A stretch of 64,000 nucleotides of DNA from Deferribacteraceae bacterium V6Fe1 (lineage in GTDB: Bacteria > Chrysiogenota > Deferribacteres > Deferribacterales > Deferrivibrionaceae). The notes under the pieces are model-generated. The model saw only the letters and a program-made list of their open reading frames with translations, had not been told where the DNA came from and did no database searches. Made by a program: the position numbers and the translations under genes. The stretch is from the NCBI GenBank assembly GCA_022813675.1, contig CP063375.1, positions 1,314,001 through 1,378,000 on the forward strand. Reading direction: 5' to 3'. This document shows, in pieces, positions 5,172 to 25,432 of this stretch; the first letter of the stretch is position 1, and every line of letters begins with the position of its first letter.

Positions 5172-5408
5172 ATGGCAGATATTGAAAAGAGAGTAAAAGA
5201 GATTATTGCAGAGCAGTTAAGTATTGATGTTGAAGAGGTTAAACCTGAGGCTTCATTTATAGAGGACCTTGGTGCTGACTCTCTTGACACAGTTGAGCTT
5301 ATTATGGCTTTCGAAGAGGAATTTGATCTTGAGATTCCTGATGAGGAGGCTGAAAAGATTAAAACTGTTGGCGATGCAATAGAGCATATTAAAAAGCATG
5401 TAGGCTAA
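5172..5408 (+). CDS. acpP: Acyl carrier protein
   Basis: Carries growing acyl chains on a 4'-phosphopantetheine attached to the serine of the GADSLD motif. It is a 78-residue acidic protein with the standard four-helix ACP pattern. A very strong AGGAGG site precedes the ATG, in line with the high abundance of ACP. A terminator-like hairpin follows, which may reduce read-through into fabF. Confidence 0.98.
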
Positions 5409-5414
5409 TTTTTT

Positions 5415-5443
5415 CGGGAGGTTTAAAGCCTCCTGAATTTTTT
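5415..5443 (+). terminator. Intercistronic hairpin between acpP and fabF
   Basis: CGGGAGG (5415-5421) can pair with CCTCCTG (5429-5435; one G-U pair) around a 7-base loop, followed by AATTTTTT. It looks like a Rho-independent terminator but sits inside an otherwise continuous operon, so it may act as a partial terminator that sets a higher acpP to fabF ratio or as an mRNA-stabilising end. Confidence 0.5.
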
Positions 5444-5454
5444 GGAGGAAATTA

Positions 5455-6693
5455 GTGAAAAAAAGAGTTGTAATTACCGGGATAGGCTTGGTAACCCCAC
5501 TTGGTGCGGGGGTAGAAGAAAATTGGGAAAATATTAGAAAAGGTCAGGGCGGTGTTGGTAGAATAACCAAATTTGACACTTCTGATTTTCCTGTTCATAT
5601 AGCTGCTGAAGTGAAAAATTTTGACATGGATGAGTATGTCGATAAAAAAGAAGCAAAAAGATTTGATGAATTTATAGTTTTTGCCCTGGCTGCTGCAGAG
5701 ATTGCTGTGAGAGATTCAAAAATTGATTTTTCCAAAGTTGATTGTAACAGAGCTGGTGTTATCGTTGGTTCAGGTATCGGAGGTTTTAGGACTATCGAGG
5801 ATACCCATACTGTTTATGTTGAAAAAGGGAATAAGAGGATTTCACCGTTTTTTATCCCTTCGGCAATCATAAATATGGGGAGTGGTGCCATATCTATCAG
5901 GTATGGACTTAAAGGCCCAAATAGCAGTGTTGTGACTGCTTGTGCAACAGGTACCCATGCAATCGGTGATGCCTTTAAAGTGATTCAGCGTGGTGACGCA
6001 GATATAATTTTTGCCGGTGGAAGTGAAAGTGCAATCACCCCTCTTGCTCTTGGCGGATTTGCCAATATGAAAGCCCTTTCCAGACGAAATGATGAACCTG
6101 AAAAGGCAAGCAGGCCTTTTGACAAGGACAGAGACGGATTTGTTATGGGGGAAGGTGCGGGAATTTTAATTTTGGAAGAGTTGGAGCATGCCAAAAAACG
6201 AGGGGCTAAAATTTATGCTGAAGTTGTTGGTTATGGTTTAACAGGGGATGCATATCATATTACAGCTCCGGACGAAAGTGGTGATGGGGCAAAAAGGTGC
6301 ATGGAAATGGCAATTAAGGATGCCGGACTTAAGCCTGAAGATGTGGATTATATAAATGCCCATGGTACTTCAACACCTTATAATGATATTATTGAAACAA
6401 GAGCAATTAAAAAGGTATTTGGCGAACATGCCTATAAATTGCTTGTCAGCTCTACAAAGTCTATGACCGGTCATATGTTGGGGGCAGCAGGAAGTGTTGA
6501 GGCAGCATATACGGCTCTTGCAATATACAATGGGGAGATTCCTCCCACAATAAACTTAGATGAACCTGATGAGGGCTGCGACCTTAACTATGTGCCAAAT
6601 AAAATGATTAAAAAGGAGATAAAAGTAGGTCTTTCCAATTCTCTTGGATTTGGGGGGACAAATGCTTCAATAATAGTGAAAAAATATGAATGA
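5455..6693 (+). CDS. fabF: Beta-ketoacyl-ACP synthase II
   Basis: Elongating condensing enzyme. The 412-residue protein begins [17 protein letters not shown] and has the Cys-His-His triad: the cysteine in TACATGTHA, the first histidine in [11 protein letters not shown] and the second in TGHMLGAAG. Translation starts at GTG 5455, preceded by GGAGG. The 3' end overlaps rnc by 8 bases. Family and length match FabF rather than FabB. Confidence 0.96.
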
Positions 6694-9509: not shown

Positions 9510-10757
9510 ATGATTAAGGTTCTTGCGGTTGACGACAGCCCTACAATGCATAGGCTCTTTAAAATGATTTTTAGCACGGATGAATATGAGCTCAGGCTTG
9601 CCGATAATGGTGAAGAGGGGCTTAGAATTGTAAAGGAGTTTTCACCTGATTTAATTTTACTCGACTTTATCATGCCTAAAATGAACGGTTTTCAATTTTG
9701 TAAAATTTTGAGAGAGGATTATGGATTTAATGAAATTCCGGTTCTTCTGATTACAAGTAAGGCTGAAGATGTCGGAGATAAGTTTATCGAAAAGTTTAAA
9801 TGTATTGACTACATTGCAAAGCCGTTTCAACCAGATGAGTTGATTGAAAAAGTCAATGAGGTTGTAAATAAATGTGAAAACGGTGTGCAAGATGACGGTG
9901 CAATTGATCAGCTACTTGATATTGAAGCCAAAAGCTTTGAAGAAAACACTGAGCATCAGGTTGCCGATGTCAAAGTTGAACAGAATAGGGAGTACTCTTC
10001 AAGCTCTGTTGTGGATGAAATAATATCAAAGGTTGAGAAGGACGTATTGCCTACACTAAGAAAGTCCATTGAAAAATTTCTTAAATTTGAAACAGGTTAT
10101 ATGATCAGTGATATTAAAGGTGAGTCGATAAATATTGAAAAACTAACTGATATCATGACAAAATTTGATGGTGAACTGACTGTTTTTAATAATGAGATTG
10201 ACTACCATTTTTATATGTCAGGTGGATATATTTCTTATTGTTATAAGGGGGACGACAAGGTCGAAGATTTTTTTGAGCTATTACAGGATGTGACCGGGAC
10301 ATGCCTTTTAGAAGTTGAGAATTTTGTTTCTTTGTATGCTCAGGTGAGAAATTTGGGGTTTGAAGATAGTCTTATAAAGAGATGTTTTATATTTTACGTT
10401 GCTAATATGCTATGCGAGGCATTTGAGCTTAGTGGTGGCAGATATTATGTGGATTTGATTGATGTGGATGATAATTTTAAAAGTAAGAATTGGGTTTCGT
10501 ATAATGATTTGGGTAAGATTGTTTCAGATTTTAAAGAGGAGAAAGTAGAGATAAATAAAATAATATATGACGAAAACCTCGTACCTCAGAGAATTACCGA
10601 GCAGGCAGATGGCTTGAAAGCTTTTGAAGTGAGGTTGTTTGAGCTTTGTGACGGGAAAAGGACAGTAGGGGAGATTTTGAGATTTTTTGGTAACAATAGG
10701 CAGTATGTAAAGAACATAATTGGCACTTTGGTATTAACAGGATATTTGAAAATTTAA
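9510..10757 (+). CDS. PatA/PixG-like response regulator (REC plus PATAN/DUF4388-like domain)
   Basis: The 415-residue protein has an N-terminal receiver (about 1-120) with VLAVDDS, the phospho-acceptor D52 in LILLDFIMP and the lysine in IAKPF. After a linker, residues about 165-415 contain a GELTV...YHFYMSGGYISYC segment and DFFELLQDVTGTCLLEVE that resemble PATAN/DUF4388 modules, and a C-terminal winged-helix-like region with CDGKRTVGEILRFF. In cyanobacterial PatA/PixG the receiver is C-terminal, so the order is reversed. First gene of the operon, in the position of pixG/pilG; likely output of the CheA below. The C-terminal domain assignment is inference. Confidence 0.75.
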   Translation: MIKVLAVDDSPTMHRLFKMIFSTDEYELRLADNGEEGLRIVKEFSPDLILLDFIMPKMNGFQFCKILREDYGFNEIPVLLITSKAEDVGDKFIEKFKCIDYIAKPFQPDELIEKVNEVVNKCENGVQDDGAIDQLLDIEAKSFEENTEHQVADVKVEQNREYSSSSVVDEIISKVEKDVLPTLRKSIEKFLKFETGYMISDIKGESINIEKLTDIMTKFDGELTVFNNEIDYHFYMSGGYISYCYKGDDKVEDFFELLQDVTGTCLLEVENFVSLYAQVRNLGFEDSLIKRCFIFYVANMLCEAFELSGGRYYVDLIDVDDNFKSKNWVSYNDLGKIVSDFKEEKVEINKIIYDENLVPQRITEQADGLKAFEVRLFELCDGKRTVGEILRFFGNNRQYVKNIIGTLVLTGYLKI

Positions 10758-10771
10758 TTTAGGGGGTATAT

Positions 10772-11134
10772 ATGGCTAAAATTTTGGTAGTAGATGATAG
10801 TTTGACCGAAAGGGAGATTATAAAAAAAGCTCTTGAGGCCGAGGGATATACTGTGGTGTTAGCTAATGATGGTGAAGCGGGACTGAAGGCACTTGACGGT
10901 GAAAAGTTTGATTGTGTGCTTCTTGATGTGGTAATGCCAGGGAAAAACGGATATCAGATTTGCAGAGAGATTAAAAAGAACGATTTTACGAAAGATATTC
11001 CAGTTATATTGGTGACATCCAAAGGGCAGGATAGTGATAAATTTTGGGGGAAAAAGCAGGGAGCCGATGATTATATTGTTAAGCCTTTTCAGATTGAGGA
11101 ACTTATTCAGACTGTTAAGAGGTTTGTTAAGTGA
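10772..11134 (+). CDS. Single-domain response regulator, CheY/PilH-like
   Basis: A stand-alone receiver of 120 residues: VVDDS, phospho-acceptor D52 in VLLDVVMPGKNG, VTSKG and the lysine in IVKPF. The sequence, including KNGYQICREIK and the FWGKKQGADDYI segment, resembles PilH of type IV pilus chemosensory systems. It has no output domain and would act by protein contact or as a phosphate sink. It lies 14 bases after the first gene and its stop overlaps the GTG start of the CheW gene. Confidence 0.85.
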   Translation: MAKILVVDDSLTEREIIKKALEAEGYTVVLANDGEAGLKALDGEKFDCVLLDVVMPGKNGYQICREIKKNDFTKDIPVILVTSKGQDSDKFWGKKQGADDYIVKPFQIEELIQTVKRFVK

Positions 11135-11610
11135 TAAAGCAGGTTTTATTGAAAAAAGCAAAGGGCTTACCCGTTGTAGAGAAACCTGTCGGGCTAAAAA
11201 AGTATGTTATATGCAAGGTTGGTGCTAAAAGTTTTTTGATTGAGCTTGACAAAGTCAGAGAGCTTGTCCCATTGACTACAATTGCAAATATTCCAGGTAC
11301 TGATCATAAAATTTTGGGAGCATTGAATCTAAGAGGGGACATCGTAGTAATAATTGATCTTCGTGAGAAGTTAAACGTCAGCGAAGTAAAGAAAACCATT
11401 GCAAGCAGGTTTGTTATTGTCGAAGTAGAGGGTGAATTGTTGGGTATTTTTGTGGACGAAGCTCAGCAAATTATAGAAGCAGGCAAGGAGCAGATTAGTA
11501 AGGAAGTAGAGGATAAAGAAGAAATTTTCTGTGAGTATGTTGATGTTAACGGTTTATTAATAGGTGTTTTGGATTTAAGTAAAATATATATTGATTATAA
11601 AATTAAGTGA
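11131..11610 (+). CDS. CheW/PilI-like coupling protein
   Basis: Couples the chemoreceptor to the CheA kinase in signalling arrays. The 159-residue protein shows the CheW fold pattern: [21 protein letters not shown], then [27 protein letters not shown] with the conserved NLRG motif, and [12 protein letters not shown]. Starts at GTG 11131, overlapping the stop of the CheY-like gene. It is the more conserved of two CheW-type genes in this operon. Confidence 0.9.
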
Positions 11611-11618
11611 GGTTGGTT

Positions 11619-13775
11619 ATGGCAGAAAGAGGTGTTAAGTTTAGTTTGTTATCAAGAATTATATTATTGATACTTGTTGTTATTGCCCTTGTTTCTTTTG
11701 CTGCAAGTTACATCGTTTATTCCAGCTCTGTGAAGACTGAGGTTAAAAACATCCTTGAAGATTTAACTACAAGGGTTGACGGGACATTTAAAAGGATTGA
11801 AGATAAGGATAAAGAGGTTGGTAGCATTATCAGGACATTTACCATTTCACCACTTTTAAAAACTGCCTTACAAGGCAAGGTTAAGCAAAGCGTGATTTCC
11901 GGTGAAATGGATAGATTTTTAGGCACCTACACAGATGTAACGTCCGTTTATCTGGTAGATTTGGATTATAATATCATCGGTGAAGCTTCCAAAAAAGAGA
12001 TTAAATTGCCGCCTCTTGATGAAATTATATATTATGAGGACTTAAAGCTTAACGAATATTATGTCGAGTCATATCTGACCAAAGAGACACCTTATGTTGT
12101 ATATTACTCACCAGTTGGGGATGAAAATGGCATTTATGGGGCACTTGTGGCAGTTGTTGACGGTAACTATCTGCTTGGTTTTGCTAACACTGAGTTTACA
12201 AAAATGAAATTTCACGAAGCTCAGAGAAGCTGTGCTAATTGTCACACTAAAGAAGAAGGACTTATTAATTATGGTTTTACGGTTGTTTATGATGCAGATG
12301 GAAACTTGGTATTGAATCCTCTCTATGGTGACAGGATGCTTTATGAAAAGAAGCCTGAATTTACCGCGCTTTTCAATGAAATAAAGCCTGTGTTGAAGTT
12401 GGATAAGTTTATAGAAAAAGAGGTTATCATTCAAGGCCAGCCGTTTTTTGCTTCTTTTGGTAAGTTGAGTTTTAAGAAAACCGAGTTTTATGTAGGTATG
12501 CTTAAAAATAAAAATTACAAACTTGCCAGTATTAAAAAAGGTGGTTTGTTTTCTATTGGTATTACAGCGGTTTTGGCGCTTATAATTTTCTTGATTACTA
12601 TAGTGCTTATGAGAAGGTCTTTAGCCCCTGTTTTTGAGCTTAACAATGCTATGCAAAGGGTAATGGAAGGGGAATATGATATTAGGGTTGCTTCAAAGAC
12701 ATCTGATGAGCTTGGTAGTCTTGCGGAAGGTTTTAATGAAATGCTTGACAGAATTTCCGGTTATATTCAGACGGATGAAGACAGAAAGCGTCTGCAAAAC
12801 CAGGCAATAAATCTTATGGACGTAGTTTCTGAGGCTGCTGAAGGTAACTTGACTGTAGAAGCTGAAGTAACTGCTGACGAACTTGGCGCAGTTGCAGATG
12901 CATTTAATATGATGACAGGCAATATTAGGGAGCTTATTAACGATATTAAGAGCGCAGGTGACTCCATTGTTGATGCTACCGAAAAGTTGCTTATGGCAGC
13001 TGAAAAAACAAGTGAAGGTGCGAATATTCAGATTGAAGAATTGAATAAGACTTATGAGGTCATTACGGTATTTAAGAAAAATAGCCAGGCTTCTGCTACA
13101 AAGTCTGAAGAAACGGTTGAAGTTACGGCAAGTGCTTCTGAAGCTGCAGAAAAAGGTCTTGCAATGCTTGATGAAACGGTTGACGCCATGTTAAATGTTA
13201 AAAGGTATTCTCAACTTGCCTCCAAAAAGGTTAAGAGCCTTGGTGAAAGGTCTCTTGAGATTGGCGATATTACAAATGTTATTAGTGAGATTTCAAACCA
13301 GACAAACCTTCTTGCACTTAACGCCGCTATAGAGGCTGCAAGGGCAGGTGAGTATGGACACGGTTTTGCGGTTGTTGCCGATGAGATTAGAAAGCTTGCA
13401 GAAAGAAGTACGAAGGCTACTAAGGAGATTGCCGAGCTTATCAAATCTATTCAGGTGGAAACATCAGAGACGGTAAAACTTGTTGAGGAGAGTACTGTAA
13501 ATATCGAGCATAGTTCCGATTTGGCTGAAAAAGCAGGTAACTCACTGAAGGATATTAACGAAGCGTTAGTAAGGGCAAGGGATTCTATTAGAGAGATTTC
13601 TCTTGAGATTATTAACCAGGCTGAAGAAGCAAATAATGTAGCAGTATCAATTGAAAAGGTTAGAGAGATTGCAGAAGGTACGGTTGAAGGTGTGAAACAG
13701 ACAAATATGATTGTGGCAACACTGTCTCAATTGGCTGAAATGTTTAAGGAAGCAGTAGATAAATTTAGAGTATAA
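11619..13775 (+). CDS. Methyl-accepting chemotaxis protein with periplasmic CxxCH heme motif
   Basis: Membrane chemoreceptor of 718 residues. TM1 is about residues 12-32, a periplasmic domain of about 270 residues follows, TM2 is about 309-329, then two HAMP-like segments (after [10 protein letters not shown] and around [11 protein letters not shown]) and a signalling domain with the hallmark [19 protein letters not shown] and [16 protein letters not shown]. The periplasmic domain contains SCANCHT: Cys205, Cys208, His209, a covalent heme c attachment motif. ATG 11619 follows GAGG; an upstream GTG at 11607 would add four residues. No CheR-docking pentapeptide is present at the C-terminus. Position matches pilJ/pixJ. 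Heme attachment is inferred from the motif. Confidence 0.9.
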
Positions 13776-13777
13776 AA

Positions 13778-16126
13778 ATGGCTAAAATTAACAAGCAGGA
13801 ACTGATTGAGTTTTTCTTGATGGAAAGTGAAGAGCACTTTGAGACCATTTTAAATGGTCTCTTGGTGCTTGAGCAGAATCCTGAAAACTGGTCTATTATT
13901 GATGAGATGTTTCGCAGCACCCATACTATTAAAGGTTCTGCCGCAATGGTAGGTTTTATAAATGTGTCAAGTGTTGCACACAAGTTGGAAGATTTTTTAG
14001 ATGAATTTAGGACGGGAAAAAGAAAAATCGATCAGGGGATAACGACTGTCTTAGTGGAAATTTTTGAAAAATTTAACAATGAGGTTAAGTCAAAAAAGGA
14101 TGACTTAAGACAAGAGCTGTATGAAGAACTTTTGTCTAAAATTGATAATATTTCAAAAATAGTTCCCTCTTCTGTTAAGGAAGATTTGGTAGAATTATCT
14201 ACTGATAAAAAACAGGCTAAGGTAAAACCTTCGAGAACTGAGATACTCGAAAAAGCCGATGAAAACTTTAGTCAGATAGGTGAACAGACGTTTGACAGTT
14301 ATATAAGGGTAAAGCTGAATAAGATTGATGGCTTATTAAACTTGGCTGGGGAGCTTATTACCAATAAGAATAGGCAGAATGAAAGGGTAAAAGCAATTCA
14401 AGATTTAAGCAGCAACCTTGAATATACAAAAAACAGACTTGTTCAAATTATCAGGGAATTTGAAGACAAATACTCATATACATTATCTTCGGAAAATGAG
14501 TTGGCTAAAAGTTATTCGGAAGAGCTTTTGGATGGTTTTTCTGAGGGTGAATTTGATAGGTATGACCACTTTAACATACTTTCAAGACGTCTTCAGGAAA
14601 TTGGTAACGACATTGTAATGAGTATTGATGAAATTTTTAAAAATTTTGAATCTTTTTCAGAAGAAATCAGTTACGTCAACAGGGTGACAGACAGTATTCA
14701 GAAAGGATTGACATCAATAAGACTTGTCCCTATTGACAGGCTTTTCAGCGCAGCAACAAGAGCGGCAAGAAGTGCGGCAATTGCAGAAAATAAAAAAGTA
14801 AAAGTACATATTATAGGTGAGAAAGTTGAACTGGATAAGACACTTATTGATGCGTTGACGGAATCTTTTATTCATATAGTCAGAAACTCCATTTCTCACG
14901 GTATAGAAAGCTCGGACATTAGAAAACAAAAGGGGAAGGATGAAGAAGGTAATATCTATCTAAAGGCAAAACGTGAAGGTAGATATGTTATATTGGAAGT
15001 AGAGGATGATGGTGGTGGGCTTAATCTTGAACTTATAAGGGAAAAAGTGGTTCAGAAGGGTTTATTGCCCGAATATGAAGCTAAAAACATGAGGGCTGAT
15101 AAACTGCTTAATTATATATTTTTACCGGGCTTTTCCACCAAAGAAGGTACATCGGAGATTTCAGGGCGCGGTGTAGGGCTTGATGTAGTAAAAAGACAAG
15201 TAGAAAGTCTTGATGGTAACATATCCGTTATAAATAAAGAAGGTAGCGGATTGTGTATCCAAATTAGTGTGCCTGTTACCCTTTTGATTTCCGAATATCT
15301 TTTATTGCGGGAAAACTCTCAGACATTTTCAATCCCAATAATTTCTGTTTACGAATCTTTTAATATAGATACGGCAAATGTAAAAAAGATAGGCGGACGT
15401 TTTTTCTACAAAATACGAGATGAAATACATGAAATTCACGACCTTGGTGTTTTGTTAAAGCAAGTTGAAAATGCCCAGTTTGAAAACGGAAGTGTTGGGA
15501 TAATTGTTGAAGGTATAAAAAAACCTTACATAATCACCGTAGATGAGATTATAGGACGAGAAACTGCAGTCACAAAGAAGCTTGGAAAAATTGTTGAAGG
15601 TTTAAGACATATAACAGGAGCGACCATAAGCCCGAGTGGAGAGGTAAGGCTTATTATTGATCCTATAAGGCTTATCGAAGAAAAAGCAGAAGGCACTCTA
15701 AATTATACTAAAACTACCACTGAGCAGCCGAAAAGTACGGGGAAAATATATATTCCTAATAGTGTATTAATTGTGGATGACTCTATCAGTATCAGGAAGT
15801 TTTTGAGTTCGATAATTGCGGACATGAACTTGGCGGTGGACGAAGCTTACGATGGTGCCAATGCACTTGAAAAACTTGAAAAGAGGAGATATGATTTAAT
15901 TATCACCGACTTGGAGATGCCTGTGTTAAATGGTTATGAACTAATTGATAAAATTAGAAATTACTATCGTGATAATTCTACTGCCATATTTGTATTAACA
16001 TCTAGGGCTACGGAAAAGCATAAAAATAAGGCTTTTGAGCTTGGGGCTAACGATTTTTTAATTAAACCGCTAAATGAAGATAAAATTAAAGAAAAAATAA
16101 GAGAGGTTATTTTTGAAAGGGCTTAA
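13778..16126 (+). CDS. cheA: Hybrid chemotaxis kinase CheA-REC (ChpA/PixL-like)
   Basis: Histidine kinase of the chemosensory array, 782 residues. Domains in order: one Hpt domain with phospho-acceptor His49 in RSTHTIKGSA; a divergent linker/dimerisation region; HATPase_c with HIVRNSISHGIE (N box), VEDDGGGLN (G1) and GRGVGLDVVK (G2); a CheW-like domain; and a C-terminal receiver with VDDS and acceptor Asp711 in IITDLEMPVLNG. The fused receiver is typical of ChpA/PixL rather than flagellar CheA. Only one Hpt is seen, unlike the multi-Hpt Pseudomonas ChpA. It starts 2 bases after the receptor gene and overlaps the next CheW-like gene by 14 bases. Confidence 0.92.
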   Translation: MAKINKQELIEFFLMESEEHFETILNGLLVLEQNPENWSIIDEMFRSTHTIKGSAAMVGFINVSSVAHKLEDFLDEFRTGKRKIDQGITTVLVEIFEKFNNEVKSKKDDLRQELYEELLSKIDNISKIVPSSVKEDLVELSTDKKQAKVKPSRTEILEKADENFSQIGEQTFDSYIRVKLNKIDGLLNLAGELITNKNRQNERVKAIQDLSSNLEYTKNRLVQIIREFEDKYSYTLSSENELAKSYSEELLDGFSEGEFDRYDHFNILSRRLQEIGNDIVMSIDEIFKNFESFSEEISYVNRVTDSIQKGLTSIRLVPIDRLFSAATRAARSAAIAENKKVKVHIIGEKVELDKTLIDALTESFIHIVRNSISHGIESSDIRKQKGKDEEGNIYLKAKREGRYVILEVEDDGGGLNLELIREKVVQKGLLPEYEAKNMRADKLLNYIFLPGFSTKEGTSEISGRGVGLDVVKRQVESLDGNISVINKEGSGLCIQISVPVTLLISEYLLLRENSQTFSIPIISVYESFNIDTANVKKIGGRFFYKIRDEIHEIHDLGVLLKQVENAQFENGSVGIIVEGIKKPYIITVDEIIGRETAVTKKLGKIVEGLRHITGATISPSGEVRLIIDPIRLIEEKAEGTLNYTKTTTEQPKSTGKIYIPNSVLIVDDSISIRKFLSSIIADMNLAVDEAYDGANALEKLEKRRYDLIITDLEMPVLNGYELIDKIRNYYRDNSTAIFVLTSRATEKHKNKAFELGANDFLIKPLNEDKIKEKIREVIFERA

Positions 16127-16487
16127 ATTTAAACAAGGGGATTTCCATTTTATAGTTGATGTAAGAGATATTCTCCACGTTGCCGGCAAAAAAGATGTGG
16201 AAGATGATCTCAAAGAGATTAAAAATCTTGATTTTAAGAAACTTCTTAATGTTGGAAATTCATCCGAAGAGGTTATTTTTATCGGGCGGGATGATAAAAT
16301 AATGGGGTTATTGGTTGAAAAAGTTATTGAAGTATCTGAAATAGGCGAAGTATTCCCTTTTGAAAAAGAAATTTTTGTGATAGAGTTTATTAAAGGCATG
16401 GTTAAGTACAATGATGTGATATATTATTTGATAGATTTTGACAAAATAATAGAGGTAGATTATGAAGAAAAAAGTCCTTCTTATTGA
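16113..16487 (+). CDS. Short divergent CheW-like protein
   Basis: A 124-residue protein with a reduced CheW-like pattern: FKQGDFHFIVDVRDILHV at the start, IFIGRDDKIMGLLVEKVIEVSEI in the centre, and FIKGMVKYNDVIYYLIDFDKI at the end, matching the strand order of CheW where the canonical NLRG is replaced by a KGMVKYN-type loop. Starts at TTG 16113 with GAGG upstream, inside the end of cheA, and its 3' end overlaps the next gene by 26 bases. It may be a second coupling protein with altered binding to receptor or kinase. Family assignment is moderately secure, function inferred. Confidence 0.65.
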   Translation: MKGLKFKQGDFHFIVDVRDILHVAGKKDVEDDLKEIKNLDFKKLLNVGNSSEEVIFIGRDDKIMGLLVEKVIEVSEIGEVFPFEKEIFVIEFIKGMVKYNDVIYYLIDFDKIIEVDYEEKSPSY

Positions 16488-17868
16488 CGATAGCATGACT
16501 ATTCACAGGGTAATTGATTTGTCTGTAGATGAGGAAAAATATGAAGTTGAGAAGGTGTTTTCTGCAGAAGATGCCGAAGGAAAAATAAAAAGTTTTAATC
16601 CTGATATAGTACTTCTTGATAATAAACTCGAAGGGATAAAGCTTAATGAGTATGTATCCAGGTTAAAATCTGAAACCGGCGCATCTGTTATCCTTCTTGT
16701 AGGAGCGTTTGATCATTTTAACGAAAGTAATTTAAGTGCTACAAATGCCGATGACTTTATTGTGAAGCCTTTTAACTCTTCATTGCTTGAAGAGAAATTG
16801 GAAAAGTTTGGGCAGGCAGTTGCAACAGAGGTAAAAGCTTCAGAAAGTGAGTTAGAGCCTTCCATTGAAAAAGACAGTGCGGTTGAAGAATTATTGGCAT
16901 CAATAGATTCTGAAGAGACTGCCGAGAAGGAAACTCAGTTTGAGGACTTTGATGATTTATTGGCAGAAAATACACATTCGGAAGATTTAGTCGCAGATGA
17001 AAAACAGGACGTAGAACTTGAAGAGTCATTAGAGTTAAATGAAAGTATTGAAGCAGCGGAAGAGTCAAATGAGTCTGTTGAGGTGGAAGATATTTTCGAT
17101 GATGTAAAGGTTGAAGAAAAAACCGAGGAAGATCTTTTTGACACAGTATTGGCAGAGGAAAAGCAAAGTGAGGACTTGATTGCAAGTGAATCAATTTCCG
17201 AGGATATATTATCGGATTTAGTTGAAGAAAGCAGTGTAAAAGAAGATGTAGAGCAAGAAGTAATTTCGGAAGAAGATGTTACTGAACAAAAAGAAGATTC
17301 GGAACTAACTGATATCTTTGGTGAACTTGAAGATGTAAAAGATGAAGAAGATAAAGACTTATTGGAAGAGGTGGCTGTAAGTGAAGCCGATGAAGGTGTA
17401 GTTGACTCTTTACAAGAGCTTGTGGAGGATGAGAAAGTTTTTGATGAAGATTTTGACAAATCATTTGATGAAACATTTGTTGGTAAAGAAGAAAGCGATG
17501 TTAATATTGGCGAAAATATAGATGCGCAAGACGTGGCGGATGAGCTGACAGTAGATATGCCTGATGAGGTAGAGTTTGGCGCAGAATTGGATGAAAAGGA
17601 TACGTTGTCAGAGGAAGCTGAAATCCCTTCTGTAGAAGAAGAGGTTTTGGTAGAAGATTCTGTAAAAAGTGGTGAAGAGGGAAAGTTACTTGTAGATAAA
17701 GAAGTGATTAAGAAAGTTATAGAAGATTCAATAGATTTAGATTTTCTGCGTGATGTGGTAAGGGAAGTGATTTCTAAAAATTTGGAAAAAGTAATTTGGG
17801 AAATAGTCCCTGATATGGCTGAAAAATTAATTATCGAGGAAATAGAAAAGCTTAAAAAAGGTGAGTAA
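16462..17868 (+). CDS. Receiver-acidic linker-PopZ-like C-terminal helix protein
   Basis: A 468-residue three-part protein. Residues 1-115 form a receiver with LLIDDS, acceptor D53 (LLDNKLEG, lacking the usual proline) and the lysine in IVKPF. Residues about 125-405 are extremely rich in Glu and Asp with few hydrophobics, predicted disordered, with recurring short motifs such as DDLLAE, DIFDDV, DLFDTV and DIFGEL. The last 60 residues are helical, with LRDVVREVISKNLEKVIWEI and AEKLIIEEIEKLK, reminiscent of the oligomerising C-terminus of PopZ (DUF2497). It is the last chemosensory gene, and purM starts 5 bases after it. A polar or array-anchoring role is a hypothesis. Confidence 0.7.
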   Translation: MKKKVLLIDDSMTIHRVIDLSVDEEKYEVEKVFSAEDAEGKIKSFNPDIVLLDNKLEGIKLNEYVSRLKSETGASVILLVGAFDHFNESNLSATNADDFIVKPFNSSLLEEKLEKFGQAVATEVKASESELEPSIEKDSAVEELLASIDSEETAEKETQFEDFDDLLAENTHSEDLVADEKQDVELEESLELNESIEAAEESNESVEVEDIFDDVKVEEKTEEDLFDTVLAEEKQSEDLIASESISEDILSDLVEESSVKEDVEQEVISEEDVTEQKEDSELTDIFGELEDVKDEEDKDLLEEVAVSEADEGVVDSLQELVEDEKVFDEDFDKSFDETFVGKEESDVNIGENIDAQDVADELTVDMPDEVEFGAELDEKDTLSEEAEIPSVEEEVLVEDSVKSGEEGKLLVDKEVIKKVIEDSIDLDFLRDVVREVISKNLEKVIWEIVPDMAEKLIIEEIEKLKKGE

Positions 17869-21331: not shown

Positions 21332-23449
21332 ATGGTTGAAATATTGGCAAAAGAATTTAACAAGCAAGCAAAACACGTAGAAAATTTGTTAAAGCTTCAT
21401 CTTGACGGGAATACAGTCCCTTTTATCGCAAGATATAGAAAAGAATTGACCGGAAGTATGGATGAAAATGAGATAAGGGATATTTTGGAAAGGTATGAAT
21501 ATCTTGAAAACCTTAAAAAACGTAAAGAAGAAGTTATTAGGCTAATTGATGAAAAAGGCAAACTGACCGATGAGCTAAAAGTAAATATTTTAAAAGCTGA
21601 AACTCTTAAAGATGTTGAAGATTACTATGCTCCTTATAAATCAAAAAGAAAAACAAAAGCTGATATTGCAAAAGAATTGGGCTTAGCCCCTTTATCAGAT
21701 TTTATTAAAGTTACTGCTGATGAATCAAAAATATTTGAAGAAGGAAAAAAGTTTGTAACTGAAGGGGTGGACAGTCCTGAAATTGCTATTGAGATGGCGC
21801 AAGATATAATTATCGAAGAGATAGGACATAATATTGATATAAAAAATAGAATTAGAGAGATTTTTAAAAACGAAGGGGTTATTGCTTCATCAAAGTCAAA
21901 AGATGTAACCGGACGCACGGTGTATGAAGATTACTATGAATATGAAGAAAAAGTAAAAAATATTCCTTCCCACAGAATTTTGGCAATTTTCAGAGGGGAA
22001 AGACAAAAAGTATTAAAAGTTAAGATAAATATAGATGAGGAAAAAGGGATAAATTCCATTAAAAATATTTTGCATAAGGATATTGTGTTTAATGTTTACA
22101 CTGAAGCAGCCACACAAAAGGCGCTGAAAAGAATGCTTCTCCCCTCTATCGAGCTTGAAGTTAGAAGCGAATTGAAAGAATTTGCCGAGGAAAAGGCTAT
22201 CAAAGTTTTTGAAGAAAACTTGAAAAATATTCTTCTAACTCCGCCTGTTAAAAATAAGAGGATTTTAGGAATAGATCCAGCTTTTAGGACAGGGTGCAAA
22301 TATGCAGCAATAGATGAGACAGGAAAATTGTTAAATTATGGGGTAATATACCCTGTAGAGCCTCAGAAAGATATTGATGGAAGTGAGAAAACACTTACCG
22401 AAATAATTAGGAAATATAATATTAATGCCATTGCTGTCGGAAACGGAACTGCCAGCAGAGAGGTTGAAGAGTTTATAGCAAATATGATTGAAAAATGTAA
22501 TCTTGATGTAGAATATACCATTGTGAGTGAGGCGGGAGCGAGTGTGTATTCCGCAAGTAAAATTGCCAATGAAGAGTTCCCTGAATTGGATTTAACAATC
22601 AGAGGTGCAATATCAATCGCAAGAAGAGTACTTGATCCACTTTCAGAGTTGGTAAAAATAGAGCCGAAATCTATTGGTGTCGGTATGTATCAGCATGATG
22701 TAAACCAGAATAGGTTAAATGAAAAGTTAGTAAATGTAATAGAAGATGTCGTCAATAAAGTAGGGGTTGATCTGAATACAGCCGGTTATTCAATTCTTAG
22801 TTATATATCAGGACTTAATTTATCTTTGGCAAAAAAGATTGTTAAGTATAGGGATGAAAATGGCAAATTTAAAAGCAGAAAAGAGCTGTTAAATGTTGCT
22901 GGTATTGGTGAAAATATTTATAGGCAATGTGCAGGGTTTCTTAAGATATATGACGGAGAAGAGTTGTTGGATAAAATGTTTATACATCCGGAAAGTTATG
23001 ATGCTACTTATAAACTTTTTGATTATTTATCCTTGAAGCCTGAAAATCATAAGATGGTTAAACTCGCGTTAAAAGGGAAAAACATTGCAGAAATCGCCAA
23101 AAGGATAGATATTGGACTTGAAACTTTGGCAGATATAATAGAAAATTTGGAGAAGCCTGAAATAGATATAAGGAGCAATGTCGCTCCGGTAATTTTTAAG
23201 AAGGGCGTGGTTGATATAAATGATTTGGATGAAGGGATGATTTTGCAAGGTAAAGTCAGTAATGTTGTAGATTTTGGGGCATTTGTAGACTTGGGGCTTA
23301 AAAATGACGGGCTTGTACATATATCGGAAATGGCTGATAAGTTTATCAAACATCCGAGTGAAGTGGTCGAGTTAGGCGACATAGTAAATGTTAAGATAAT
23401 TAAAATTGATAAGGAAAGGGGTAGGGTAAGTTTATCTCTTAAATTATGA
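21332..23449 (+). CDS. tex: Tex family S1 RNA-binding protein
   Basis: Nucleic-acid-binding factor of the Tex/Spt6 family acting on transcription. The 705-residue protein has the Tex N-terminus (TVPFIARYRKELTGSMDE), the YqgF/RNase-H-like domain (LGIDPAFRTGCKYAAID), helix-hairpin-helix motifs (VGVDLNTAGYSILSYISGL and LLNVAGIGENIYRQCAGF) and a C-terminal S1 domain (about 635-705; GKVSNVVDFGAFVDLG). ATG 21332 follows GGAGGT; an upstream in-frame ATG at 21308 has no such site. Slightly shorter than the usual 720-780 residues. Overlaps the next gene by 4 bases. Confidence 0.95.
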   Translation: MVEILAKEFNKQAKHVENLLKLHLDGNTVPFIARYRKELTGSMDENEIRDILERYEYLENLKKRKEEVIRLIDEKGKLTDELKVNILKAETLKDVEDYYAPYKSKRKTKADIAKELGLAPLSDFIKVTADESKIFEEGKKFVTEGVDSPEIAIEMAQDIIIEEIGHNIDIKNRIREIFKNEGVIASSKSKDVTGRTVYEDYYEYEEKVKNIPSHRILAIFRGERQKVLKVKINIDEEKGINSIKNILHKDIVFNVYTEAATQKALKRMLLPSIELEVRSELKEFAEEKAIKVFEENLKNILLTPPVKNKRILGIDPAFRTGCKYAAIDETGKLLNYGVIYPVEPQKDIDGSEKTLTEIIRKYNINAIAVGNGTASREVEEFIANMIEKCNLDVEYTIVSEAGASVYSASKIANEEFPELDLTIRGAISIARRVLDPLSELVKIEPKSIGVGMYQHDVNQNRLNEKLVNVIEDVVNKVGVDLNTAGYSILSYISGLNLSLAKKIVKYRDENGKFKSRKELLNVAGIGENIYRQCAGFLKIYDGEELLDKMFIHPESYDATYKLFDYLSLKPENHKMVKLALKGKNIAEIAKRIDIGLETLADIIENLEKPEIDIRSNVAPVIFKKGVVDINDLDEGMILQGKVSNVVDFGAFVDLGLKNDGLVHISEMADKFIKHPSEVVELGDIVNVKIIKIDKERGRVSLSLKL

Positions 23450-24501
23450 TGAAAATACTGGTTTTTAATCCATCTTTTATTGGGGACTGCATATTGACAA
23501 CCCCTCTTTTAAAATATTTGAAAAATAAAATACCGGGGTGCAAAATTTATTTTTGTGTAAGACCTGAAAGTGCACCTTTGTTCAAAAATTTAGATTTTAT
23601 TGATGAGGTTGTTGTTTATGACAAAAGGAAAAAAGACAAGGGGTTAAAAGGGCTTATACAATTTGCTATAAAGCTGAACAGCATAGGCTTTGATAAAGTA
23701 GTTTCTGTTCATAAATCCTTTAGGAGCAGTTTGGTTATTAGGATGATTAAGGCGAATATCAAAGTGGGATTTAACGAGGCAACTTTACCATCTGTTTACA
23801 CTCATAGAGTGTGCAGGGATATGAGTTTGCATGAGATTGAAAGAAATTTGATGCTTGCAAGCAAGATTATAAATGGTTTTGACCTTGAAGAAGCAAAATC
23901 TATTGCTGGTAAACCTCAAATTTCAATTGATGAGACTTTTTTTAGCAAATTACATAAATATTTGGATATAGCCGCCAACGGGAAGAAGGTAGTCGCGTTT
24001 GCCCCCACAAGCAATTGGAAAACGAAGATGTGGCCGGCTGAAAAGTATGCTTTTCTTGTAAATAAACTTTATGAGAAAGGTGTATATAGCCTTGTGTTTG
24101 CGGCAAAAAGTGAGGAGGATGATTACCTCAGATTTAAAAGATTTGTAAAAGTGCCGTTTTTTGATTTTGCCTTAAAAACTTCCATTGCTGAGTTATCGTC
24201 CGCCATCAAGTCGTCAGACCTATTGGTTTGTAATGACAGTGCACCCCTTCATATGGGGGTGGCACATAATAGAAAAATTTTATGTTTTTTTGGTCCAACA
24301 GTCCCTGCATTTGGGTTTTATCCATATACGGATGATGCTGAAATTGTCGAGGTAAAAAATTTGTATTGCAGGCCTTGCCATATCCATGGGAAAAATAGTT
24401 GCCCTGAAAAACATTTCAAATGTATGAACGATATTGATGAAAATGTCGTGTTGGAAAAAATACTTGCTAAGTTGGGGATAAATGAAACTATTAATTGTTA
24501 G
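23446..24501 (+). CDS. Family 9 glycosyltransferase (heptosyltransferase-like, WaaF type)
   Basis: A 351-residue protein with the ADP-heptose:LPS heptosyltransferase pattern: N-terminal ILVFNPSFIGDCILTTPLLKYLK, central TSNWKTKMWP, and C-terminal LLVCNDSAPLHMGVAHN plus LCFFGPTVPAFGFYP, then CRPCHIHGKNSCPEKHFKCM. It would add a sugar, probably heptose, to the lipopolysaccharide core on the cytoplasmic face of the inner membrane. ATGA overlap with tex; overlaps the following family 9 gene by 20 bases. Acceptor and donor specificity cannot be read from sequence. Confidence 0.87.
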   Translation: MMKILVFNPSFIGDCILTTPLLKYLKNKIPGCKIYFCVRPESAPLFKNLDFIDEVVVYDKRKKDKGLKGLIQFAIKLNSIGFDKVVSVHKSFRSSLVIRMIKANIKVGFNEATLPSVYTHRVCRDMSLHEIERNLMLASKIINGFDLEEAKSIAGKPQISIDETFFSKLHKYLDIAANGKKVVAFAPTSNWKTKMWPAEKYAFLVNKLYEKGVYSLVFAAKSEEDDYLRFKRFVKVPFFDFALKTSIAELSSAIKSSDLLVCNDSAPLHMGVAHNRKILCFFGPTVPAFGFYPYTDDAEIVEVKNLYCRPCHIHGKNSCPEKHFKCMNDIDENVVLEKILAKLGINETINC

Positions 24502-25432
24502 ATACAGTGCTTTCGGGGACGTAATTTTGACGACCGGGGTTATCAACTTTATAAAAAGTACCGGATTTTTCGACCAGATAGATATTTTGACTGGCAAGGA
24601 TTTTGGCTTTATTTTTGAAAATGATAATAATGTGAATAATGTCTTGAAATATGATAAAAATTTAACCTTTTGGCAATATCTTGATTTCTTACAAAATGAG
24701 GTAAATGACTATGATTATATCCTTGATTTGCAAGGAAAATTTAGGACATTGCTGCTAAGGCTTTTTAGTAATGCAAGTAGCATAGGGTATGACAAAAAGA
24801 CATGGCAAAGAAGGCTATTTACCAAGTTTAGAATATTTGAGAAAAGCCTTCAAGAGCACGTGACTGAAAGATATGTTAAGGAGCTAATCAAAACATTTTC
24901 ATTGGAAAAACCCGATATTGAGCAACTACGTCCTGTTATTAATATTAAAGCTGTGGAAGAAGATAATAGTATTGCAGTGCACCCTTTTGCCAGCAAAAAT
25001 ACGAAGATTTGGCCATATTTTGATAAGTTGGTTGAAAAACTTGCAGTTGAAGGTTTTAGTGTAAAGGTAATAGGGCAAGGTGATAGAGATATTTTTAATA
25101 TGAAAGGGGTTGTCAATCTTGTTAACAAAACCGACCTTAAGCAGATGCTTGAAGAGATAAAAAAATCAAAACTTTTAATAACGACTGATTCCGGCCCTTT
25201 ACATGCAGGTGTAGCTCTTGGAGTAAAGACTTTAGGAATATTTGGTTCGACAACGCGCCATTATGGTTTTTATCCTAAGTTTAAAGATACTTATGTTATT
25301 GAAAATAACGATATAACTTGCAGACCTTGCCATGTGCATGGGCTAAAGGAGTGTCCTAAGGGGCATTTTGATTGTTTAAAAAGCATTTCTGTTGAGCAAG
25401 TTTTTGACAAAGTAGTGGGTATCTTAAAATGA
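24482..25432 (+). CDS. Family 9 glycosyltransferase (heptosyltransferase-like, WaaC type)
   Basis: A 316-residue paralogue of the upstream gene: KLLIVRYSAFGDVILTTGVI at the N-terminus, DYDYILDLQGKFRTLLLRL in the first Rossmann half, VHPFASKNTKIWP, LLITTDSGPLHAGVALG and FGSTTRHYGFYP, then CRPCHVHGLKECPKGHF. The tandem pair fits sequential addition of two inner-core heptoses, as WaaC and WaaF do. It overlaps both neighbours (20 bases upstream, 4 bases downstream). Assignment of WaaC versus WaaF is inference. Confidence 0.85.
   Translation: MKLLIVRYSAFGDVILTTGVINFIKSTGFFDQIDILTGKDFGFIFENDNNVNNVLKYDKNLTFWQYLDFLQNEVNDYDYILDLQGKFRTLLLRLFSNASSIGYDKKTWQRRLFTKFRIFEKSLQEHVTERYVKELIKTFSLEKPDIEQLRPVINIKAVEEDNSIAVHPFASKNTKIWPYFDKLVEKLAVEGFSVKVIGQGDRDIFNMKGVVNLVNKTDLKQMLEEIKKSKLLITTDSGPLHAGVALGVKTLGIFGSTTRHYGFYPKFKDTYVIENNDITCRPCHVHGLKECPKGHFDCLKSISVEQVFDKVVGILK

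Follow-up and report, generated by a model that had tools for sequence, protein, structure and literature searches.

Cache domains with a covalently attached heme have been described in the family DUF3365/Tll0287, which was renamed sCache_heme in a February 2026 preprint and includes the Geobacter sensors GSU0582 and GSU0935 (PMC12889525). The preprint presents it as the first Cache domain known to bind a cofactor covalently and reports its enrichment in Deferribacterota, among other phyla (PMC12889525). A signalling-type sCache_heme protein binds NO tightly and behaves as an NO sensor, and the members studied form no stable complex with O2 (PMC12889525). For the heme MCPs of Geobacter, redox-linked loss of an axial Met is the proposed mechanism, and DcrA of Desulfovibrio vulgaris, which has a periplasmic c-type heme, is a proposed sensor of redox potential and oxygen (PMC8396549). 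Heme-bearing receptors are already known, but apparently not with the domain type considered here, a divergent double Cache (dCache) chemoreceptor with a strongly conserved predicted heme c site.

The receptor gene lies on the plus strand of the 64,000-nucleotide stretch of DNA that was analyzed (the window), which comes from the 2,358,333-base, single-contig genome of Deferrivibrio metallireducens V6Fe1. This thermophilic anaerobe, from Vulcano, reduces Fe(III) and nitrate. It carries out nitrate ammonification with NrfA and has two PilA genes, 17 multiheme cytochrome genes, and Hcp and NorV as possible NO-handling proteins; motility was not observed despite the presence of flagellar genes (PMC11896075). 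The open reading frame at 11607-13775 encodes 718 to 722 residues, depending on whether translation starts at the ATG at 11619 or at the alternative GTG at 11607. Hydrophobic stretches mark the approximate positions of TM1 (11646-11717) and TM2 (12540-12611), and matches to HAMP (PF00672, 12603-12758) and the MCP signalling domain (PF00015, 13122-13670), both over the Pfam cutoffs, identify the protein as an MCP.

The codons TGT GCT AAT TGT CAC (12231-12245) encode Cys205-Ala-Asn-Cys208-His209 as counted from the ATG (209, 212, and 213 from the GTG) and fall between TM1 and TM2, on the periplasmic side. Codons, reading frame, and numbering agree exactly with the earlier note, which had placed a CxxCH motif here. 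The periplasmic domain has no cysteines besides the two of the motif. Based on the Cys and His frequencies of the window itself, CxxCH is expected by chance ∼0.0003 times per 270 residues, and this value, together with retention of the motif in all 11 orthologues, rules out a chance origin. The window also holds two overlapping GT9-family heptosyltransferase-like genes (23446-24498 and 24482-25429), each with CRPCHxHG. The CxxCH of these two genes almost certainly binds no heme, and CxxCH alone is therefore no proof of heme.

Among 51 genomes of the phylum, 11 from four families of Deferribacterales carry one copy each of the sensor domain. No further orthologues were detected among 385 relatives, some of them from outside the phylum, with at most six candidates scored per genome. 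A sequence scan of genome contigs returned a single near orthologue, and neither plasmid sequences nor PHROGs gave a match. The receptor tree groups the sequences by family, which fits vertical descent. Deferribacteraceae, Flexistipitaceae, Calditerrivibrionaceae, and Deferrivibrionaceae form one clade in a phylogenomic study, and the four receptor-bearing families appear to be the families of this clade (PMC13186404).

All 11 orthologues retain CxxCH, at sensor identities to the window sequence that range from 97 down to 29%. The alignment, which comprises these 11 sequences only, has 24 invariant columns, including both cysteines, the motif histidine, and His199 (12213-12215), a candidate distal heme ligand. 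His199 stands six residues before the first cysteine (seven in Flexistipes) and 10 to 11 before the motif histidine. It and His209 are the only invariant histidines, and no Met is invariant among the 11 sequences. The earlier note had proposed conservation of the motif and of a second axial ligand as a check on heme binding, and both the motif residues and a candidate for the ligand proved invariant. The most conserved 20-column stretch lies elsewhere, at domain residues 113 to 132 in the distal module.

Other observations also bear on heme attachment. A 34-residue Flexistipes fragment (core HKFHEPVREDCSNCHEGE) matched Paired_CXXCH_1 at the cutoff (20.6 bits; E value, 3.6e-4), and a second Flexistipes fragment reached 17.8 bits. 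None of 10 shuffled sequences that kept CxxCH matched this family, and with no family did they exceed 15.6 bits. The motif fragment of the window receptor itself gave weak cytochrome matches. Collectively, these comparisons lend modest support to a resemblance between the motif segment and cytochrome motifs. The V6Fe1 genome encodes CcmF- and CcmC-like cytochrome c maturation proteins (assembly family matches of 637 and 222 amino acids), so that both marks of a c-type heme protein are present: a maturation system in the genome and an exported domain with CxxCH. Based on the maturation genes and the conservation in 11 of 11 orthologues, the CxxCH of the periplasmic domain can be regarded as a putative heme c attachment site, as the earlier note had claimed.

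An AlphaFold model built from the 11-sequence alignment (mean pLDDT, 87.9; pTM, 0.84) has a dCache fold. In order, it comprises a long helix, a five-stranded distal module (residues 74 to 148 of the modelled domain; 11937-12161, also placed by alignment to dCache_1), a helix to residue 161, a coil, and a proximal module (186 to 264; 12273-12509). The coil between the modules holds His166 and C172-x-x-C-H176 in domain numbering. With the Flexistipes orthologue as lead sequence, a second run reproduced this order of elements at a pLDDT of 80, and both models put CxxCH in the linker, ahead of strand 1 of the proximal module. Confidence around CxxCH is among the lowest in each model, with blocks of pLDDT 58 and 44, as expected if a cofactor is absent from the model. 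The leading Foldseek matches in the PDB, over ∼260 to 300 columns, are mostly dCache domains of chemoreceptors and kinases, including CtaA, Mlp24, PctA, Tlp3, and TlpC. Pfam dCache_1 scored 29.8 bits on the receptor, against a cutoff of 45, and matched 8 of the 11 orthologues, all below the cutoff. Sequence searches of the PDB with the sensor domain or its profile gave nothing convincing, and viral structures showed just general Cache or histidine-kinase resemblances. The suggestion that the sensor might be a separate fold was discarded, since AlphaFold and Foldseek indicate a long N-terminal helix followed by two Cache modules in tandem.

We found no PF11845 (sCache_heme) match in the window receptor or in any of the 11 orthologues (E values up to 1). 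Profile comparison of the receptor sensor with sCache_heme gave a probability of 0.65%, with the motif outside the aligned part. Based on the missing match, the unaligned profiles, and the different position of the motif, membership in DUF3365/Tll0287 was ruled out, consistent with the earlier note, which had seen no obvious match to the PAS-like heme sensors of Geobacter. The Geobacter sensors now count as single Cache domains (PMC12889525), and with the V6Fe1 receptor as a dCache, both fall within one superfamily. Of 45 relatives searched, 43 have true sCache_heme members. The V6Fe1 genome encodes three, with PF11845 loci outside the window (1972469-1972990, 1065694-1066092, and 1121984-1122427) in a 575-residue MCP, a 508-residue protein, and a 276-residue protein. 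Together with the window receptor, these bring the putative heme-c sensors of V6Fe1 to at least four, belonging to two kinds. Proteins of ∼850 residues from one related genus (G001:C2:1442310, G002:C58:35812, and G004:C9:9077) matched PF11845 weakly, over the heme-motif part only; they may be multiheme cytochromes or a further heme sensor.

The receptor is the fourth gene of a seven-gene plus-strand operon. Upstream, RR1 (9510-10757) consists of a receiver and ∼300 conserved residues without a Pfam family (9861-10757), RR2 (10772-11134) is a CheY-like receiver, and a CheW follows (11131-11610). Downstream are a hybrid CheA with Hpt, dimerisation, ATPase, CheW, and receiver domains (13778-16126), a second CheW-like protein just under the Pfam cutoff (16113-16487), and RR3 (16462-17868), identified by its Pfam receiver and by the conserved operon order. 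The order RR1-RR2-CheW-MCP-CheA-CheW-RR3 is kept in the window and seven relatives, and across these eight neighborhoods the operon is flanked by purM-purN on one side and, in most, by coaD or a dGTPase-like gene on the other. Full-length RR1 occurs in exactly the 11 receptor genomes, and its post-receiver residues are confined to them. A PATAN/DUF4388 assignment in RR1, considered as a link to Pix systems, was dropped (E value of just 0.23, in one orthologue). In RR3, the middle is long, acidic, and variable while the C terminus is conserved (VIWEIVPDMAEKLI), a layout reminiscent of docking or scaffold proteins. The genome paper on Flexistipes sinusarabici offered a missing cheW as a reason for non-motility (PMC3236037). 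We observed that the Flexistipes operon encodes homologues of both CheW-like proteins (10200-10673 and 5255-5632).

Elsewhere, the V6Fe1 genome encodes pilus/secretion-type ATPases, flagellins, four CheR proteins, and, at 1.42 Mb, another CheA. The CheA of the operon was the sole CheA detected in two Flexistipes genomes, one apparently of the type strain; CheA counts are approximate, as the CheA family profile misses this protein in some genomes. The Flexistipes type strain is non-motile and lacks cheB and cheR, and Deferribacter desulfuricans shows twitching (PMC3236037). Based on the sole CheA and the non-motile type strain, the output of the operon is probably something other than the flagellum, and control of type IV pili is a plausible leading candidate. 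Pil/Pix systems have the gene order response regulator, CheY, CheW, MCP, and hybrid CheA with a receiver. The V6Fe1 operon shares this order with the type IV pilus systems of the Pil-Chp/Pix kind but differs in the extra CheW and response regulator at its end and in having no CheR, CheB, or pilus gene inside or beside it in any of the eight neighborhoods read; pilus-type ATPases are encoded elsewhere in the genome. The label "Pil/Pix-type" given in the earlier note fits the gene order and not the gene surroundings.

From these observations, we infer the heme attachment, its ligation, the signal, the mechanism, and the output. On balance, we favor a heme-c dCache redox sensor with an inter-module heme ligated by His209 and probably His199 and with a non-flagellar output, for which pili are the leading candidate. 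Cys205 and Cys208 would hold one covalently attached c-type heme in the linker that joins the distal module to the proximal one, with His209 as the proximal ligand. His199, chosen from its conservation, is the likeliest sixth ligand and would make the heme bis-His or switchable. A redox change of the heme, and perhaps also displacement of the distal ligand by NO, could shift the linker and with it the proximal module. The shift would then pass through TM2, HAMP, and the MCP tip to CheW and the hybrid CheA, whose phosphate would go to the receivers of the operon. With such a receptor, anaerobes that respire iron and nitrate can probably detect redox state or NO. By analogy, sensing of O2 is less likely because no stable O2 complex is formed by the sCache_heme proteins studied.

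NO could instead be the signal itself, bound from nitrate or nitrite respiration by a periplasmic sensor whose heme is five-coordinate in practice or has a weak distal ligand. Such a role would be in keeping with an sCache_heme protein, fused to signalling parts, that has high affinity for NO and does not bind O2 (PMC12889525) and with nitrate reduction by V6Fe1, which has possible NO-handling Hcp and NorV (PMC11896075). However, sCache_heme is a different domain, the invariant His199 suggests an occupied sixth site, and electron acceptors vary among the organisms of the four families; we regard a dedicated NO sensor as unlikely, though a serious alternative. The distal module of dCache domains is the usual binding place of small ligands, and in this receptor the best-conserved columns lie there and not at the motif. 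Both points favor a small molecule as the real signal, with the heme structural or an electron relay, but a hinge heme c in every orthologue would be costly if merely structural, and we consider this reading improbable.

Least of all do we expect CxxCH to serve metal binding or as a dithiol switch. The motif does occur in non-heme proteins, such as the two GT9 glycosyltransferases of the window, and His199 could form a metal site with it. Nevertheless, the site is periplasmic in an organism whose genome has a Ccm system, the full CxxCH and not merely CxxC is strictly kept, and the segment resembles cytochrome motifs, so that a non-heme role is very improbable.

If the heme-c dCache redox sensor is real, it is a second Cache type with a covalent cofactor, a double one whose heme is placed differently from that of sCache_heme, and it suggests that Cache domains gained heme c more than once. 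Tentatively, and somewhat short of calling it probable, we propose that a heme-c Cache arose a second time when a cytochrome-like segment entered a dCache hinge in the ancestor of the four families, yielding a redox hinge through which bacteria that respire metals and nitrate control type IV pili or some other non-flagellar output. Pili, the possible output, are linked to metal respiration. A single-receptor operon that survives in a non-motile organism opens both its input (redox or NO) and its output (possibly pili) to direct study.

Like the V6Fe1 receptor, DcrA is, by description, a chemoreceptor with a periplasmic c-type heme (predicted in V6Fe1), but DcrA has a cytoplasmic PAS domain, whereas the V6Fe1 receptor has no Pfam PAS match. 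The receptor and sCache_heme (PF11845) are both periplasmic sensors of the Cache superfamily with a strictly conserved CxxCH and a cytochrome-like heme segment, and both occur in chemoreceptors. In contrast to the single Cache of sCache_heme, with CxxCH between strands 3 and 4, the two AlphaFold models of the receptor have a double Cache with CxxCH in the inter-module linker. This difference in position argues for separate acquisition, although the profiles are shallow and a common origin is conceivable. The closest likeness in fold is to the dCache_1 domains of CtaA, PctA, Mlp24, Tlp3, and TlpC, which share the two-module architecture over nearly the whole domain. Their structures are described with amino acids or other small ligands and none with heme, whereas the V6Fe1 receptor is predicted to carry one.
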